Part shown: one piece after another, positions 7,562-15,442 of the stretch
How positions within the stretch are numbered: position 1 is the stretch's first letter
Layout: each line of letters begins with the position of its first letter
DNA from: a virus
Virus record (IMG/VR): IMGVR_UViG_3300034062_003602
Location: 1-40,806 of that record
Direction: 5' to 3' (one strand)
Length of the DNA: 40,806 bases
Notes under the pieces: model-generated
What the model saw: the letters and a program-made list of their open reading frames with translations, nothing else
The model's database searches: none
Told to the model about the DNA's origin: nothing
Made by a program: the position numbers and the translations under genes

Positions 7562-7713
7562 TGGCGATTCCGTTGCGGGTGATTCAGCGGTACAAGCTAG
7601 ACGAGCAGGATGAGATGGTTTGCACGGGGTATAAGCTCCAGGTGAAGACGGCCGAGGGCTGGGCGAACGTGCCGATTGTGTTTGTGAAGGAGGGGGAACA
7701 GGAGCCTGACTAG
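7561..7713 (+). CDS. Hypothetical small protein
   Basis: 50 residues, starting MAIPLRVIQRYKLDEQDEMV and ending EGEQEPD. The ATG overlaps the stop of the previous gene, so it is read by coupling. It has a beta-like pattern with an acidic tail and no motif. The structured region at 7762-7829 follows its stop. Confidence 0.65.
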   Translation: MAIPLRVIQRYKLDEQDEMVCTGYKLQVKTAEGWANVPIVFVKEGEQEPD

Positions 7714-7761
7714 GGGATTGTGGCAAAAGTGGGGCAAACTCCAAAAATACGCGCGAATCTG

Positions 7762-7829
7762 GTAGGGGTAGGCTGACTGACGAACAGCGCCGGCCACATT
7801 TTCCAGCCTCCCTGTGGCCTACCCCCTAC
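7762..7829 (+). other. Nested, mutually exclusive hairpins after the first early genes
   Basis: Outer pairing: GTAGGGGTAGGC (7762-7773) with GCCTACCCCCTAC (7817-7829), 12 bp with one bulged base. Inner pairing: GGCCACA (7792-7798) with TGTGGCC (7813-7819). The inner right arm shares bases 7817-7819 with the outer right arm, so the two stems compete at their junction. There is no T-run directly after. It may cap the 3' end of the short early transcript or act as a switch; this is inferred from pairing only. Confidence 0.45.
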
Positions 7830-7842
7830 AAAATATAGTATG

Positions 7843-8195
7843 CCGTATACGGTTCGGTTGCGTACCAAAGCTCCCCGTTCCGGTTCCGCAACATGCCGTC
7901 GCCGGAAGGTAGACCGCATACCGTATACAATGCCTGGCCGGAACATGCTGCTGCCGGAACGCGCCGGGCGCATATCGTTCTTTCTTCCCAACAAGCCGGT
8001 TTCGTTCTGATCCGGGTGCGGAATACCCCTTGACATGGAATATTTTCCTGGCGGTAGGCTTAAATGCCTGGCCATGGGTATTCATAAGCGGAAGTAATAA
8101 ATACAGGGTTATTCATTTGCCATTAGGTAACTACCTAGTTACTTGTCCTAAGCCTATTGACATCCCCGCATCCCTCACCTATGCGCGCGCGCGCG
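7843..8195. promoter_or_regulatory. Intergenic regulatory stretch with palindromes and a possible promoter
   Basis: This roughly 600-base gap (7714-8340) has no convincing gene. It holds a perfect palindrome CCGTATACGG (7843-7852), a second CCGTATAC (7921-7928), and two overlapping near-palindromes between 8124 and 8142 (TAGGTA-AC-TACCTA and GTAACTA-CC-TAGTTAC). A TTGACA (8157-8162) follows, with 17 bases to a weak TATGCG (8180-8185), then alternating GC (8182-8195). The palindromes beside a promoter look like operator sites. Confidence 0.4.
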
Positions 8196-8324
8196 TTCCT
8201 TCCTTATCACGCCGCAAACCCCATGCGTCCCCCGCATAGCTGCCATGCAAAAACAGCACTACCACCCCGCCCCGCCCCCGGGCTAGGTTTCTTTCACCGG
8301 CAAGGCATCCCGCCCCGCCCCTCG

Positions 8325-8343
8325 CATAAGGTTCCGCCCTATG
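8325..8343 (+). promoter_or_regulatory. Hairpin enclosing the start codon of the 8341 gene
   Basis: CATAAGG (8325-8331), loop TTCCG, CCCTATG (8337-8343). The left arm carries the AAGG ribosome site and the right arm ends with the start codon. The same arrangement occurs at 8698-8715 and 9618-9636. Confidence 0.5.
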
Positions 8344-8628
8344 TCCCTCGCTTCCCTGCTCGGCGCCCTAGCCCGCGAAGCTAACAGTGCCGCCATCATG
8401 GTAGAAGATGCCGGCGTTTCCCGTGTGGGATACTGCGCCCGCAAGGCTGAATTGTTCCGGCTTGCGGCCGACGGTTTCGCACAAGCCGCCGCCCACGAAA
8501 CGGAAAGCGATGCCGCCCGCCAAATGTGGCAGCACCGCGCCACTAAAGCCGCCGCAGCTGCCGCGTCATGGTCCAGTTACGCGGACCATTGGCTAAAGCA
8601 TGAAGCCGCCGCTTTCGAACCCGCCTAA
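8341..8628 (+). CDS. Hypothetical Ala-rich helical protein
   Basis: 95 residues, almost entirely helical and Ala-rich (LASLLGALAREANSAAIMVE; ATKAAAAAASWSSYADHW), with one Cys. AAGG lies nine bases before the ATG, inside a hairpin that also pairs with the start codon. No family is recognised. The next gene follows after the structured spacer 8629-8712. Confidence 0.7.
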   Translation: MSLASLLGALAREANSAAIMVEDAGVSRVGYCARKAELFRLAADGFAQAAAHETESDAARQMWQHRATKAAAAAASWSSYADHWLKHEAAAFEPA

Positions 8629-8639
8629 CATTCCGGCTT

Positions 8640-8715
8640 CCGGGTGGCTTGCCACCCGGTTTCCCGAGTGTTAGACCGCTCGCATCGCAACCCTTAGCAT
8701 AGGTGACGCCCTATG
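8640..8715 (+). promoter_or_regulatory. Three-hairpin leader of the GP88-like gene (copy 1)
   Basis: H1: CCGGGTGG-CTTG-CCACCCGG (8640-8659). H2: CGAGTG (8665-8670) with CGCTCG (8677-8682). H3: CATAGG (8698-8703) with CCTATG (8710-8715), which contains the start codon; the AGGTGA ribosome site lies in its left arm. A second copy at 9560-9636 keeps all three stems with different paired bases, so the RNA fold, not just the sequence, is conserved. Confidence 0.6.
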
Positions 8716-9393
8716 TCCCACATGATGACGGCCAAGGCTGCCGCCGATATCGCCGGTTCCCTAGGCTTCCCATCCAAGATGCCCGGCACCGCCTATGGCC
8801 TGCCCGCGCAAGCGTGCATCACGGGTGCCAAGCTGCACGCCGTGCCCGATACCGTGTGTTCCGATTGCTATGCCCTAAAGGCAAACTATCAATATCCTTC
8901 CGTAAAGAAAGCGCAGGCCACGCGCCTTGCCGCAATCGAAAACCCGCGATGGGTGCCGGCTATGGTATCAATGCTGCGCAAGGCGCATGGCCTCGACGGC
9001 GGCAAGCCTGCCCGCGCCGTATCCGATCCGGGGTGGCACCGCTGGCACGATGCCGGCGACATCCAATCTGAAGCGCATCTTCACGCTATGTGCGAGGTGG
9101 CACGTCAAACGCCGGAGATCGTCCATTGGCTGCCGACGCGCGAGGTCGGGATCGTTTCCGCCTTCTGGGCCGCCGGCCACAAGGAACCCAGCAACCTACG
9201 AATCCGCGTATCTGCAACCAAAATTGACGGGGCGCCATCCTCGCGCTTCCCCCTCACTTCAAGCGTGTATGACAAGGAACCTCCGCGCGAAGGCGCCTAT
9301 GTGTGCCCGGCCTACACGCAAGGTGGCAAGTGTGGCGATTGCCGCGCATGTTGGTCCCATGAGGTCGCCGAGGTCGCCTATCCCCGCCACTAA
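8713..9393 (+). CDS. GP88-like phage protein
   Basis: 226 residues. The pattern CSDCYALKANYQYPSVKKAQ ... TRLAAIENPRWVPAMVSML ... WHRWHDAGDIQSEAHL ... EIVHWLPTRE ... CPAYTQGGKCGDCRACW matches the phage 'gene product 88' family as I recall it: a conserved C-x2-C-Y near residue 50, an R-x-H/W-D-x-G-D-I-x-S core near residue 115, and a late Cys cluster (CPAY, CGDCRACW). These Cys suggest a metal or Fe-S site. The family's function is unknown. It is preceded by a three-hairpin leader that encloses its start codon. Confidence 0.8.
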   Translation: MSHMMTAKAAADIAGSLGFPSKMPGTAYGLPAQACITGAKLHAVPDTVCSDCYALKANYQYPSVKKAQATRLAAIENPRWVPAMVSMLRKAHGLDGGKPARAVSDPGWHRWHDAGDIQSEAHLHAMCEVARQTPEIVHWLPTREVGIVSAFWAAGHKEPSNLRIRVSATKIDGAPSSRFPLTSSVYDKEPPREGAYVCPAYTQGGKCGDCRACWSHEVAEVAYPRH

Positions 9394-9413
9394 CCCGAAA
9401 GGAACCCGCCCCA

Positions 9414-9548
9414 ATGGCCCGCGATATCTTTGTGTTCGAATTGTCAACCATGCTGGACATATGCGCCGGCCTAACGGAACGCGGCCACGGTTTCGAGGTG
9501 ACGTGGCACGATCACCAATGGCGCATCCGCCTAACCGGCGCCTTCTAG
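9414..9548 (+). CDS. Very small hypothetical protein
   Basis: 44 residues (MARDIFVFELSTMLDICAGL ... WHDHQWRIRLTGAF). AAAGGAA ends about ten bases before the ATG, and it sits in a 240-base gap between two genes of the same operon. It has an amphipathic N-terminal helix and a beta-like end, with no motif. Confidence 0.6.
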   Translation: MARDIFVFELSTMLDICAGLTERGHGFEVTWHDHQWRIRLTGAF

Positions 9549-9559
9549 CAATCCGGTTT

Positions 9560-9636
9560 CCTAGGGGCTTGCCCCTAGGTTCCCCGAATGCTAGTGCATT
9601 CGCTCGCAACCTCTCAGCATAAGGTTTCGCCCTATG
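9560..9636 (+). promoter_or_regulatory. Three-hairpin leader of the 9634 gene (copy 2)
   Basis: H1: CCTAGGGG-CTTG-CCCCTAGG (9560-9579). H2: CGAATGC-TAGT-GCATTCG (9585-9602). H3: CATAAGG (9618-9624) with CCCTATG (9630-9636), enclosing the ribosome site and start codon. Compared with copy 1, H1 and H2 show compensatory base changes while the CTTG loop and the joining sequences are kept. Confidence 0.6.
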
Positions 9637-9933
9637 TCCCTGTCAGCTACTGCGCAAGCCGCGCTTGCCGCCGCTCTCTCCACCCGTGGCCCCAACAAGG
9701 GCAAGCTCCTGCGCTCCGCGCCCAAATCCAACACGCATGCCTGTGCCGCGTGGCAGGGGGCCATGCTCTCCGTCAACCCTTACAAGGCTAGCATCTTCGC
9801 GCTGATCATGATGGACGACATCCAGCGCGCCATCTTTGGCGAGGTGCAAGCGCATTTCGACCGCATGCCAAAGGCCGAGCGCATCAAGTTTGATGCCGAC
9901 CGCGCCACCCTTGAAGCCTGCGGCGTTTGGTAA
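9634..9933 (+). CDS. Hypothetical protein
   Basis: 99 residues: a basic, Ala/Pro/Lys-containing N-terminus (LSTRGPNKGKLLRSAPKSN) and a helical C-terminus (IQRAIFGEVQAHFDRMPKAE). The start codon lies in the H3 hairpin of the leader at 9560-9636. It shares the MSL/MSH start context with the two other hairpin-led genes but not their protein sequence. No family is recognised. Confidence 0.7.
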   Translation: MSLSATAQAALAAALSTRGPNKGKLLRSAPKSNTHACAAWQGAMLSVNPYKASIFALIMMDDIQRAIFGEVQAHFDRMPKAERIKFDADRATLEACGVW

Positions 9934-9945
9934 GGAACCCGAACC

Positions 9946-10197
9946 ATGCTCGAACATGCAAGCGATGATGCGTCCGAGGCCATGCGTGATGCGCACGGTG
10001 CCGCCGAAAACGTGGCCCGCCTACTTGATAGGTATTGGGGCGACGCTGGGTCCGATCCCATTGTGGTGCGGGAGTGGCGCGAACGTCTTGTTGCGCTGGC
10101 CTTCGAAATCGAACGGGAGCTGGGCGAACCATCGGAACGCCTGTCTTGCGGGGGCCTCGTGAAGCGCAGCTACCTCGACATATACCGCCGAGCCTAG
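9946..10197 (+). CDS. Hypothetical helical protein
   Basis: 83 residues from an ATG 12 bases after the previous stop; AAGGAA lies in the gap. Mainly charged helix (MLEHASDDASEAMRDAHGAA ... LVALAFEIERELGEPSERL) with one Cys. No motif is recognised. It is in the same operon as the GP88-like and methyltransferase-like genes. Confidence 0.65.
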   Translation: MLEHASDDASEAMRDAHGAAENVARLLDRYWGDAGSDPIVVREWRERLVALAFEIERELGEPSERLSCGGLVKRSYLDIYRRA

Positions 10198-10231
10198 CCG
10201 CCAAGTTGTATACAAAACCAGGCAGCGGGAG

Positions 10232-10263
10232 ACGTGTGCCCGCGCCACATCTAGGAGACACGT
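10232..10263 (+). promoter_or_regulatory. Weak hairpin holding the ribosome site of the methyltransferase-like gene
   Basis: ACGTGT (10232-10237) pairs with ACACGT (10258-10263), placing CTAGGAG in the loop three bases before the ATG at 10267. A palindrome TTGTATACAA (10206-10215) lies just upstream. Confidence 0.3.
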
Positions 10264-10266
10264 GCC

Positions 10267-10815
10267 ATGCGTGTTCTGGTAGCCTGCGAATACAGCGGCG
10301 CTGTCCGCGATGCCTTCCGTGCCCGAGGCCATGACGCATGGTCCTGCGACCTGCTGCCGACCGAACGCCCCGGCCCGCATTATCAGGAAGATGTGCGCGA
10401 GGTGATCGCCGATATGCAATGGGACCTGATGATCGCCCATCCCCCATGCACCCACCTCGCCGTGTCCGGTGCCCGCTGGTGGAAGGATAAGCTATTCGAG
10501 CAGGGCGAAGCGTTGGATTTTGTGCGCTTCCTGATGGACGCACCCATCCCGCGCATCGCAATCGAGAACCCGGTTAGCAAGATCAGCACGGCCATCCGCA
10601 AGCCGGACCAGATCATCCAGCCATGGCAATTCGGGCATGGTGAAACCAAAGCCACGTGCCTGTGGCTCAAGGGCTTGCCCAAGCTGGTGCCGACTGATAT
10701 TGTAGACGGGCGCGAAGCCCGCATCCATAAGATGCCGCCCAGCGCAGACCGTTGGAAGGAACGCAGCCGCACCTATCAGGGCATCGCCGATGCGATGGCG
10801 GCGCAGTGGGGCTGA
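10267..10815 (+). CDS. DNA cytosine methyltransferase-like protein (short form)
   Basis: 182 residues. An N-terminal AdoMet-binding-like motif (MRVLVACEYSGAVRDAFRARG, then WSCDLLP) is followed by AHPPCTHLAVSGARWW near residues 58-73, the PPC catalytic motif of C5-cytosine methyltransferases, and IAIENPVSKIS, which matches the ENP/ENV motif. It lacks a long target-recognition region. Phages carry many such short enzymes; they may protect DNA from host restriction or be partly inactive relatives. AGGAG lies before the ATG. Cytosine specificity rests on PPC and ENP only. Confidence 0.8.
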   Translation: MRVLVACEYSGAVRDAFRARGHDAWSCDLLPTERPGPHYQEDVREVIADMQWDLMIAHPPCTHLAVSGARWWKDKLFEQGEALDFVRFLMDAPIPRIAIENPVSKISTAIRKPDQIIQPWQFGHGETKATCLWLKGLPKLVPTDIVDGREARIHKMPPSADRWKERSRTYQGIADAMAAQWG

Positions 10816-13285: not shown

Positions 13286-15442
13286 ATGCTTATGATGCGA
13301 GAGCGGGAGACTGTGGAGGCCGGCGGCCTTGGCAGCGGCGGCGCATTCACCATTGCGGCCAGTGTCAAGGCGTTCGAGGTTCTGTCCTCCAACCTCTACC
13401 AGAACAAGACGCTGGCGGTGATCCGTGAGATCACGTGCAACGCAGTGGATGCACACACGGCGGCTGGCCTGCCGATCAGCACCATCCAAGTCCACCTGCC
13501 CACCTACATGGAGCCGGTGTTCTGGGTGCGCGACTACGGGTCCGGCCTGTCCGACGAGGATGTGCTGTCCCTGTATACGACCTACTTCCGATCCACTAAG
13601 GATCAGGACAACAGTCAGATCGGCGGCTTTGGTCTTGGCTCCAAGTCCCCCTTCGCCGTGGCCGACCAGTTCACCGTCACCTCGTGGCACGGCGGGTTCA
13701 AGTCCACCTATGCCTGCTACAAGCAGGACGGCATGCCGCAAGTCAATGCGGTGGGCAAGGAACCTTGCGGCTCTCAGACCGGCTTCGAAGTGCGCGTGCC
13801 CCTGACTGCCCGCTCCGGCTCCATCGTGGACTGGCATACGCAGGCGCGCTCGCTGTTCCGCTGGTGGCCTGTGACGCCCGCCGTCACCCCTTCCGAGATC
13901 TTGGATGAAGGCTTCCTTTCCGAGGAGTTGCTGCTCACGTCCGACTATGAGGTGGGTGGCGCGCCGGGCTGGGCTATCTTCAAGCACGTGCATCAGAACA
14001 CGCTGGTCATGGGCAACGTGCCCTACCACCTGAACGAGACTGCCATCACGGGGTTGCCCGGTCCTGTCCTGCAACTGCTGGGCAAGATCAGGCTTGTCGT
14101 CCGGGTGCCGATGGGCAGCGTGTCCATCAGCCCGTCCCGCGAGACGCTGTCCTATGATGCGGCCACCAACAAGTATCTGGTGGACAAGCTGGCGCAGATC
14201 GGACGCGAGATCACGGCCAAGCTGGAGAAGGAAATCTCTGCCAGCCCAAGCCTGGCCGCAGCCCGTGAGCGTGTGCATGGCCGGGGCGAACACTCCCTGT
14301 CCCACCTGTTCGGTCGGCTCAAGGATATCGTGAAGCCGCGTTGGAACGGGAAGCCCGTGCCCGAGACGGTCAGCTTCAAGCTGCACACCGCCTTCTCGAA
14401 GCCGGCGCAAGCCTTCGACTACGTGAAGCCCGGCCACTGGTCCACCTTCCGCCGGGACTCCTACCCCGACACCGATCCGGTCTTCGAGCATGCCTTCCCC
14501 AAGTACGAGACCGTGGTGCGTCTAATCATGTGGACTGAGCGGGTCACGGCTGCGACCTTCCGCAAGCTCCGTCACCACTACCTGATGGGCGGCAAGCGGA
14601 TCGACGTTAAGTTGCAGGTGGTGTCGGGCATCCCGTATCAGGAGCTTGTGGACAAGTGTGCCGAGACCGGCATGCCGGTCCCCGTCAACATCGACACGGC
14701 GCTGACTGCCCCGCCTCCCATCACGTCCGCATCCACCCGCGTCCCGGCCACGCAGTTCTACGAGGTAACTGTGGGCGGCTACAACTACAACTACACGCTG
14801 GTGCGGGACACGCTCGACCTGTCGGGCGGCGGTGTGTACGTCCGCTTTGGCGATGGCAGGCCCATGGCCGCCAAGTTGTTGCACGTGATGGCCTGCCTGT
14901 TGGCGCAGCAGGCGATTGCTCCGGCGCGTGTCATCGGCCTGCCTTCCAGCAAGCTGGCTCCGAATGGCAAGCTGCTCAAGGCGCTGGCTGCCAACGGCTG
15001 GCAGGAACTGGATACCGACTACCTCCAGAACATGGTGGACATGCCGGCTCTCCTCGAAGGTGAGCGCCAGACTGCCATCCACCACCTCCTCTTCGAACAG
15101 TCCGGCCTGCGCCGTAGTCTTGTGCGGGTCGGCATGGAGGATGCCAATACAGGTGCAATGTGGAAGGGGTTCGCCCCTGTCCACGCTGCCCTTCAGCCGC
15201 ACTTCGCTTTGTACTTGAAGGCTGGCACCCAGCTTAGTCCTAATGTTCGCAGGCTGGATGCTGCAACGTTGCAGGACGTGCTGTCGCCTGCGCAGTGGAA
15301 ACAGATTGTGGATACGCTTGCAATCCGCCTCAACGTGATGCAAGCTGTCGAGGGTTTCTTGAAGCAGCATCCGCTGCTCGCCTATGTCAACGGTCCCGGT
15401 AAGCTCGACGTTGACGCTGTCCGTGAATACGTAAACCGCTGA
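13286..15442 (+). CDS. rIIA: rIIA-like protein (GHKL ATPase)
   Basis: 718 residues, like T4 rIIA (about 725). The N-terminal 200 residues hold the GHKL ATP site: N-box REITCNAVDAH (about 48-58), G1 motif VRDYGSGLS (about 80), G2 loop GGFGLGSKSPF (about 112-122). The remainder is a large unassigned region with Tyr/Gly-rich patches. In T4, RIIA acts with RIIB at the membrane to protect infection from the lambda Rex system and affects lysis; the same pair order occurs here. AAAGG lies ten bases before the ATG. Confidence 0.88.
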   Translation: MLMMRERETVEAGGLGSGGAFTIAASVKAFEVLSSNLYQNKTLAVIREITCNAVDAHTAAGLPISTIQVHLPTYMEPVFWVRDYGSGLSDEDVLSLYTTYFRSTKDQDNSQIGGFGLGSKSPFAVADQFTVTSWHGGFKSTYACYKQDGMPQVNAVGKEPCGSQTGFEVRVPLTARSGSIVDWHTQARSLFRWWPVTPAVTPSEILDEGFLSEELLLTSDYEVGGAPGWAIFKHVHQNTLVMGNVPYHLNETAITGLPGPVLQLLGKIRLVVRVPMGSVSISPSRETLSYDAATNKYLVDKLAQIGREITAKLEKEISASPSLAAARERVHGRGEHSLSHLFGRLKDIVKPRWNGKPVPETVSFKLHTAFSKPAQAFDYVKPGHWSTFRRDSYPDTDPVFEHAFPKYETVVRLIMWTERVTAATFRKLRHHYLMGGKRIDVKLQVVSGIPYQELVDKCAETGMPVPVNIDTALTAPPPITSASTRVPATQFYEVTVGGYNYNYTLVRDTLDLSGGGVYVRFGDGRPMAAKLLHVMACLLAQQAIAPARVIGLPSSKLAPNGKLLKALAANGWQELDTDYLQNMVDMPALLEGERQTAIHHLLFEQSGLRRSLVRVGMEDANTGAMWKGFAPVHAALQPHFALYLKAGTQLSPNVRRLDAATLQDVLSPAQWKQIVDTLAIRLNVMQAVEGFLKQHPLLAYVNGPGKLDVDAVREYVNR

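Follow-up and report, generated by a model that had tools for sequence, protein, structure and literature searches.

The window, by which we mean the whole 40,806-base stretch analysed here (IMG/VR virus record IMGVR_UViG_3300034062_003602), belongs to a phage whose family-A-type DNA polymerase finds its best cultured match, at 33%, in Caulobacter phage Kuura. Opposite the RNR and ThyX genes begins a rightward operon, and at its start lie three genes whose start codons each fall in a short shared hairpin, here called the start box, together with two copies of a larger upstream structure, here called the cassette (Table 1). These are two separable RNA modules, and they recur across one clade of uncultured phages. 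Elsewhere, at 13286-15442, the window encodes a RIIA-like protein (PHROG 612), in a small phage with a family-A-type DNA polymerase.

Several conserved features surround the box genes. The noncoding stretch between the divergent operons (7840-7935) carries repeated inverted motifs, CCGTATACGG / CATACCGTATAC. Downstream of it a GTAACTA-CC-TAGTTAC palindrome precedes TTGACA (8157-8162), 17 nt and TATGCG (8180-8185), an arrangement upstream of the first box gene that is largely conserved in four relatives, and positions 8126-8190 are probably the promoter of the box-gene operon with an operator or activator site. A simple consensus scan of 7600-10300 returned no sigma70-like match, the TTGACA/TATGCG pair being missed because its -10 element is poor. 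The leader of the first gene (8215-8341) holds a conserved CCCCGCATAGCTGCCATGCAAAA and, just before the box, GGCA..CCCGCCCCGCCC in several relatives.

An earlier note on this DNA had described two leaders with three stems each and a third gene, at 8341, with the last stem only, and all of these stems lie where it placed them. Start box and cassette are, however, distinct modules. A repeat search revealed that the first stem of that note is the tip of a longer inverted repeat, whose outer helix, P0, it had missed; P0 encloses the described stem, holds the stop codon of the upstream gene and competes with the second stem. The initial leader fold could not show P0 because it began inside arm a, one of its strands. 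The downstream proteins had been called unrelated, in agreement with our searches, in which only the second of the three matches Pfam/PHROG (GP88). Relatives were collected by way of the GP88-like protein, the start-box pattern, the 99-aa protein and the cassette pattern; all records are metagenomic, from uncultured phages, and many are fragments.

Table 1. Start boxes, cassettes and genes at the head of the rightward operon (positions in the window)
Feature	Position	Strand	Remarks
Start box 1, GCATA-A-GGT..GCC-C-TATGT	8324-8344	+	Start codon 8341-8343 in stem; no cassette upstream
Small orphan gene, 95 aa, family 7	8341-8628	+	Stop 8626-8628 inside arm a of cassette 1
Cassette 1, arm a of P0, CTAACATTCCGG	8625-8636	+	Pairs with 8663-8674
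Cassette 1, P1, CCGGGTGG/CCACCCGG, 8 bp, CUUG loop	8640-8659	+	
Cassette 1, arm b, CCCGAGTGTTAG	8663-8674	+	Pairs with arm a (P0) or 8677-8682 (P2)
Cassette 1, alternative hairpin P2, CGAGTG/CGCTCG	8665-8682	+	
Start box 2, GCATAGG-TGACGC-CCTATGT	8697-8716	+	Start codon 8713-8715
GP88-like gene, 226 aa, Pfam PF17338, family 2	8713-9393	+	
Small ORF, 44 aa, without start box	9414-9548	+	Stop 9546-9548 inside arm a of cassette 2
Cassette 2, arm a of P0, CTAGCAATCCGG	9545-9556	+	Pairs with 9583-9594
Cassette 2, P1, CCTAGGGG/CCCCTAGG, CUUG loop	9560-9579	+	
Cassette 2, arm b, CCCGAATGCTAG	9583-9594	+	P0 or P2
Cassette 2, alternative hairpin P2, CGAATGC/GCATTCG	9585-9602	+	
Start box 3, GCATA-A-GGT..GCC-C-TATGT	9617-9637	+	Start codon 9634-9636
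Small gene, 99 aa, family 1	9634-9933	+	Start box kept in 10 phage records

The start box, GCAUA(A)GG…CC(C)UAUGU, is a conserved predicted hairpin with the start codon in its stem, and 42 copies of it (27 distinct sequences) stand ahead of 14 protein families, as defined by blastp, in 15 IMG/VR records comprising the window and 14 relatives. All 42 lie on the coding strand, each exactly on the ATG that starts a predicted protein; reversed, the pattern had no match in the 18 records searched. Within the window the string CATA...CCCTATG occurs three times where 0.08 occurrences are expected, a number reached by 0 of 100 shuffles. For each of the 27 distinct versions the predicted fold, of -4.2 to -9.2 kcal/mol, places the start codon in the stem, and the predicted probability that the start codon is unpaired is 0.00-0.05 (mean 0.02) for the three box genes of the window against a mean of 0.47 for its 26 other genes, a few of which are also low. 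The loop varies in length and sequence while the stem is kept, and the pair above GCAUA may be A.C, A-U (CCTTATG in G018) or G-C. A further pairing, of an AACC linker with a GGTT after the Shine-Dalgarno sequence, was considered by eye and dropped, as many boxes read GGCT or GGAT.

The outer pairs GCAUA/UAUGU are almost invariant, so that covariation neither proves nor excludes pairing at these positions. Their sequence is held more tightly than pairing requires, and for that reason we suspect a recognised site: the start hairpin would lower or gate initiation and would probably be bound by an RNA-binding factor of the phage or its host. The involvement of a trans-acting protein, suggested in the earlier note, is possible. 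A regulator was sought as a gene restricted to box-bearing phages, and none was singled out among records whose box-free members are partial or distant. The translation control that the earlier note proposed is well supported by position, because the Shine-Dalgarno sequence and the start codon both sit within the start box.

The near-palindrome GCATAGG...CCTATGT, usually present in two to four copies per record and confined to one short region, could also be read as double-stranded DNA, that is, as an operator for a phage repressor or activator comparable to stoperators or dyad repeats. Half-sites at a fixed spacing would then be anticipated, whereas the gap between the arms takes every value of 9, 10, 11, 12, 13 and 14 nt, a range that turns the half-sites around the helix and favours RNA over a dimeric DNA operator. 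Also at odds with an operator are the exact placement of every copy on the ATG, in the orientation of the gene only, and the linked cassette, which covaries as RNA with more G.U than A.C in P1. An operator of this kind is therefore highly improbable in our judgement, and we are confident, short of certainty, that the start box is an RNA start-hairpin element.

As a short hairpin that holds a Shine-Dalgarno sequence and a start codon, the start box resembles the operator of MS2: in the commonest version of the box, a GG/CC upper stem likewise stands over a 5-bp lower stem, with an unpaired A (here opposite a C). The MS2 operator is the 19-nt TR hairpin at the start of the replicase gene and is bound by coat protein (PMC4751978). 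About half of the distinct start boxes, however, lack the unpaired A, the loop is free in length and sequence, and the box stands at several genes per genome in a DNA phage; the likeness is one of architecture, and we claim no membership of that class.

Upstream cassettes were read out and checked against the sequences in 22 copies from 14 records. In the cassette the hairpin P1 is enclosed by the outer helix P0, with a 3x3 internal loop between them, and arm b, one strand of P0, is also the 5' strand of P2, in which it pairs with arm c downstream. Because both use arm b, P0 and P2 are mutually exclusive, and the covarying RNA structure thus has two alternative predicted folds, P0+P1 or P1+P2. 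Across the 22 cassettes 175 of 176 P1 cells are paired, with compensatory changes in seven of the eight columns, five G.U and no A.C, in counts that near relatives enter many times. For P0+P1 (17 sequences), 10 pairs have changed on both sides, and the covariation score is 0.400 against 0.136+-0.016 in shuffled alignments (0/500) and at most 0.154 for slid partners; for P1+P2 (11 sequences), 98.2% of positions are paired and the score is 0.415 against 0.156. RNAalifold returned P1+P2 from the 58-column alignment that includes arm c, and P0+P1 from the 50-column alignment that leaves it out. The two full leaders of the window fold at z -3.0 and -3.9 relative to shuffles.

P0 is imperfect and weaker than P1, its column 4 mispairing in 6 of 17 sequences, and part of its conservation could come from the arms acting as a recombination joint. 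When P0 is forced in one prediction and arm a masked in the other, the energy gap between them is no more than about 6 kcal/mol in 14 of 19 cassettes, and the P0 state is predicted to be the lower in energy in 14 of 19. A conserved C.C mismatch within P0 finds its explanation in P2, which the same C closes; in three cassettes that lack P2 it is replaced by a G that pairs in P0. The clearest case is L126, where changes at two positions of arm b are answered by matching ones in both arm a (CTAGGG) and arm c (GCTCG).

A covariance model built from 17 of the 22 cassettes recovered exactly these 22 in 363 kb, the five on which it had not been trained scoring 51.8-60.1 bits, against a best background match of 20 bits in 595 kb of other viral and bacterial DNA; sense-strand scores lay well above those of the antisense images. 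The earlier note named a lack of further covarying homologues as grounds for its own rejection; 20 more cassettes and 39 more start boxes turned up, P1 covaries strongly, and P0 and P2 are also supported. The element is thus larger and commoner than that note stated.

The upstream stop codon occupies a fixed place in the proposed P0 helix. In all 18 cassettes with a readable upstream ORF it stands at arm-a positions 2-4, although the ORFs that end there belong to about eight unrelated families, and one further cassette has TAG at this position behind an ORF that runs off the contig. Three cassettes at the operon head carry TGC or TAC instead and form no good P2 while keeping P1 and P0; since the three share one leader, the joint absence of stop and P2 counts as roughly one evolutionary event. 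In G013, G004 and G010 (about 3780-4120 in L205; also L198 and L209) the first box gene is preceded by another conserved noncoding leader, of about 300 nt, which ends in a P2-less cassette; Rfam did not match it in L205, and no tRNA was found in these three relatives.

The established footprint of a ribosome is such that one terminating at the arm-a stop would cover arm a. It may thus melt P0 and free arm b to form P2, and the choice between P0 and P2 would report on translation of the upstream gene. Being complete before arm c is transcribed, P0 would be the default state, and translation of the upstream gene would shift the balance away from it. To such a switch, gated by the stop codon, we give an even chance of being correct.

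Another reading would make the cassette a structural insulator or 3'-end stabiliser that works through P1 only, the P0/P2 alternative being incidental. Indeed, P1 is the best conserved helix and belongs to both predicted folds, several copies have mispairs in P0, and the cassettes at the operon head, which have no P2, retain P1 with P0. Yet P0 and P2 both covary, the change in arm b of L126 is matched in arms a and c alike, the mismatched C of P0 doubles as the closing base of P2 and has gone only where P2 is absent, and the position of the stop codon inside P0 is fixed, so that we consider a purely structural role for P1 unlikely, if far from negligible.

The same arms could also be taken for a transcription terminator or attenuator, with P0+P1 as the terminator and P2 as the competing fold. 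Classical transcription attenuators have three arms that pair 1:2 or 2:3, with arm 1 in the footprint of a stalled or terminating ribosome, and the cassette shares both this logic of pairing and an arm 1 that a ribosome would cover. It differs from them in that the stop codon in its arm 1 ends a full upstream gene and not a leader peptide, and in that it is intergenic within an operon and without a terminator U tract. In none of the copies is P1, P0 or P2 followed by a U tract, and a terminator scan found nothing at the cassettes; intrinsic termination is unlikely for this reason, and the terminator reading as a whole very improbable.

As the likeliest output of the stop-codon-gated switch we propose RNA processing, in which the stem, 3x3 internal loop and stem of P0+P1 might serve as an RNase III-type processing hairpin; this is the weakest step of the scheme. 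A cut there would give the upstream message a protective 3' end, P1, and arm b could then form P2 at the 5' end newly made on the downstream message. In the R1.1 site of T7 early mRNA, a lower stem is followed by an asymmetric 4/5 internal loop and an upper stem. R1.1, an RNase III signal of 60 nt, contains an internal loop (PMC6121014), and the cassette, an intergenic hairpin of 50-60 nt, has the same succession of lower stem (P0), internal loop and upper stem (P1). Its internal loop is, however, 3x3 and not asymmetric, its lower stem holds the upstream stop codon, and one strand of that stem has an alternative partner. By analogy with such signals, RNase III processing is a possible output of the cassette, albeit a rather doubtful one.

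Searches beyond the clade located neither module. Rfam (release 15) gave 0 matches at gathering score in the window and 0 at E<=1 in window 7700-9960 and L205 3500-5600, and the cassette has no conserved unpaired core; the small-molecule ligand that the earlier note had entertained as an alternative to a protein thus finds no support. Nor were tRNA or tmRNA genes found. The leader had no blastn match in 50,697 phage records (INPHARED), the cassette pattern had 0 matches in GTDB genomes, and Caulobacter phage Kuura has no cassette and no convincing start box. The start-box pattern matched four unrelated bacterial contigs in GTDB, two of which were inspected and have no leader context, and these matches are read as chance; a start-box-like match in another virus (L098) was dropped because its strand carries no plausible gene. 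In other phages, genes homologous to the downstream ones have no start box, and the cassette model had no match in those that were searched. The modules therefore belong to the phage clade and not to the genes that they precede.

Within the clade, the genes behind the modules change from phage to phage. Across the cassette between the first and second slots, families 6 and 7 upstream are each found both with family 2 and with family 3 downstream (7-2 in G000, 7-3 in G007, 6-2 in G004 and 6-3 in G010), and recombination across cassettes has therefore shuffled these genes. The second slot (8713-9393 in the window) holds one of several large genes in the relatives (families 2, 3 and 5), of which family 2 is Pfam GP88 and families 3 and 5 look GP88-like by eye, as if functionally equivalent versions were exchanged at one place. 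The mobile regulatory cassette suggested in the earlier note survives in this restricted sense, as position-specific joints in one gene-shuffling region, and not as copies scattered through genomes.

Might boxes and cassettes then be mainly recombination joints, linkers for the swapping of small genes with no regulatory role? The four combinations of families across one cassette are what such a role would leave behind, as is the contrast between many backbone genes, shared at 80-98% identity, and box genes whose presence varies. A homology joint, however, needs identical sequence, whereas P1 diverges freely and still pairs in 175 of 176 cells, the loops and arm gaps of the start boxes vary while the stem is kept, and the modules occur apart, start boxes without cassettes and cassettes without start boxes (L126, L006b). 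When the cassettes were compared with integron attC sites (RYYYAAC...GTTRRRY), arms with both AAC and GTT were found in only 2 of 22, the remaining cassettes having AGC/GCT or other bases in the arms. Joints without regulation are, on balance, an improbable account. We instead think it reasonably probable that the start boxes and cassettes are a two-module family of cis-acting RNA leaders that controls the translation of promoter-proximal, frequently exchanged phage genes.

The closest described kind of element is the start-associated sequence (SAS) with its extended form (ESAS), known from Cluster K mycobacteriophages (PMC3203893, Pope et al. 2011) and Cluster EF Microbacterium phages (PMC7302621). 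The SAS is a short conserved motif at the ribosome binding sites of several non-structural genes that are unrelated to one another, and its orientation is nearly always the same. A subset of copies has an upstream imperfect inverted repeat with a variable spacer; the SAS is thought to act in translation initiation (PMC3203893, PMC7302621). The two-part layout is the same here, with 42 boxes before 14 protein families and 22 cassettes. The mycobacteriophage motif, GGGATAGGAGCCC, is 13 bp long, asymmetric, and ends 3-7 bp before the start codon (PMC3203893), whereas the start box takes the ATG into its hairpin and does not contain that consensus. Pope et al. found that changes in the ESAS do not support RNA pairing and favoured a DNA-binding site (PMC3203893); in the present cassettes the evidence for RNA pairing is strong, and the repeat includes the stop codon of the upstream gene. 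The ESAS of Adephagia contains a putative SigA promoter (PMC11373665), in contrast to 7600-10300 of the window, where the simple scan gave no sigma70-like match. The likeness is thus one of layout without shared sequence, and we claim neither homology nor a common host.

Taken together, the modules point to an undescribed way of coordinating the translation of neighbouring phage genes. In its fullest form, which we put forward tentatively and with more doubt than belief, a stop-codon-gated bistable hairpin would set the processing of the message and the initiation of the next gene and, combined with the shared start hairpin, would make up an RNA regulon in which one factor controls a whole set of exchangeable early genes. 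Actinobacterial phages have provided examples of start-associated sequences since 2011, but no mechanism for them; here an unrelated phage lineage presents the same two-part layout with clear evidence for RNA folding and with a stop codon in the fold, so that reporters can put the role of start-associated repeats to a direct test. Should one RNA-binding factor act as the regulator, any small gene brought in behind a box by recombination would fall under phage control immediately, and such a factor would, if real, explain how early genes can be exchanged without loss of regulation.
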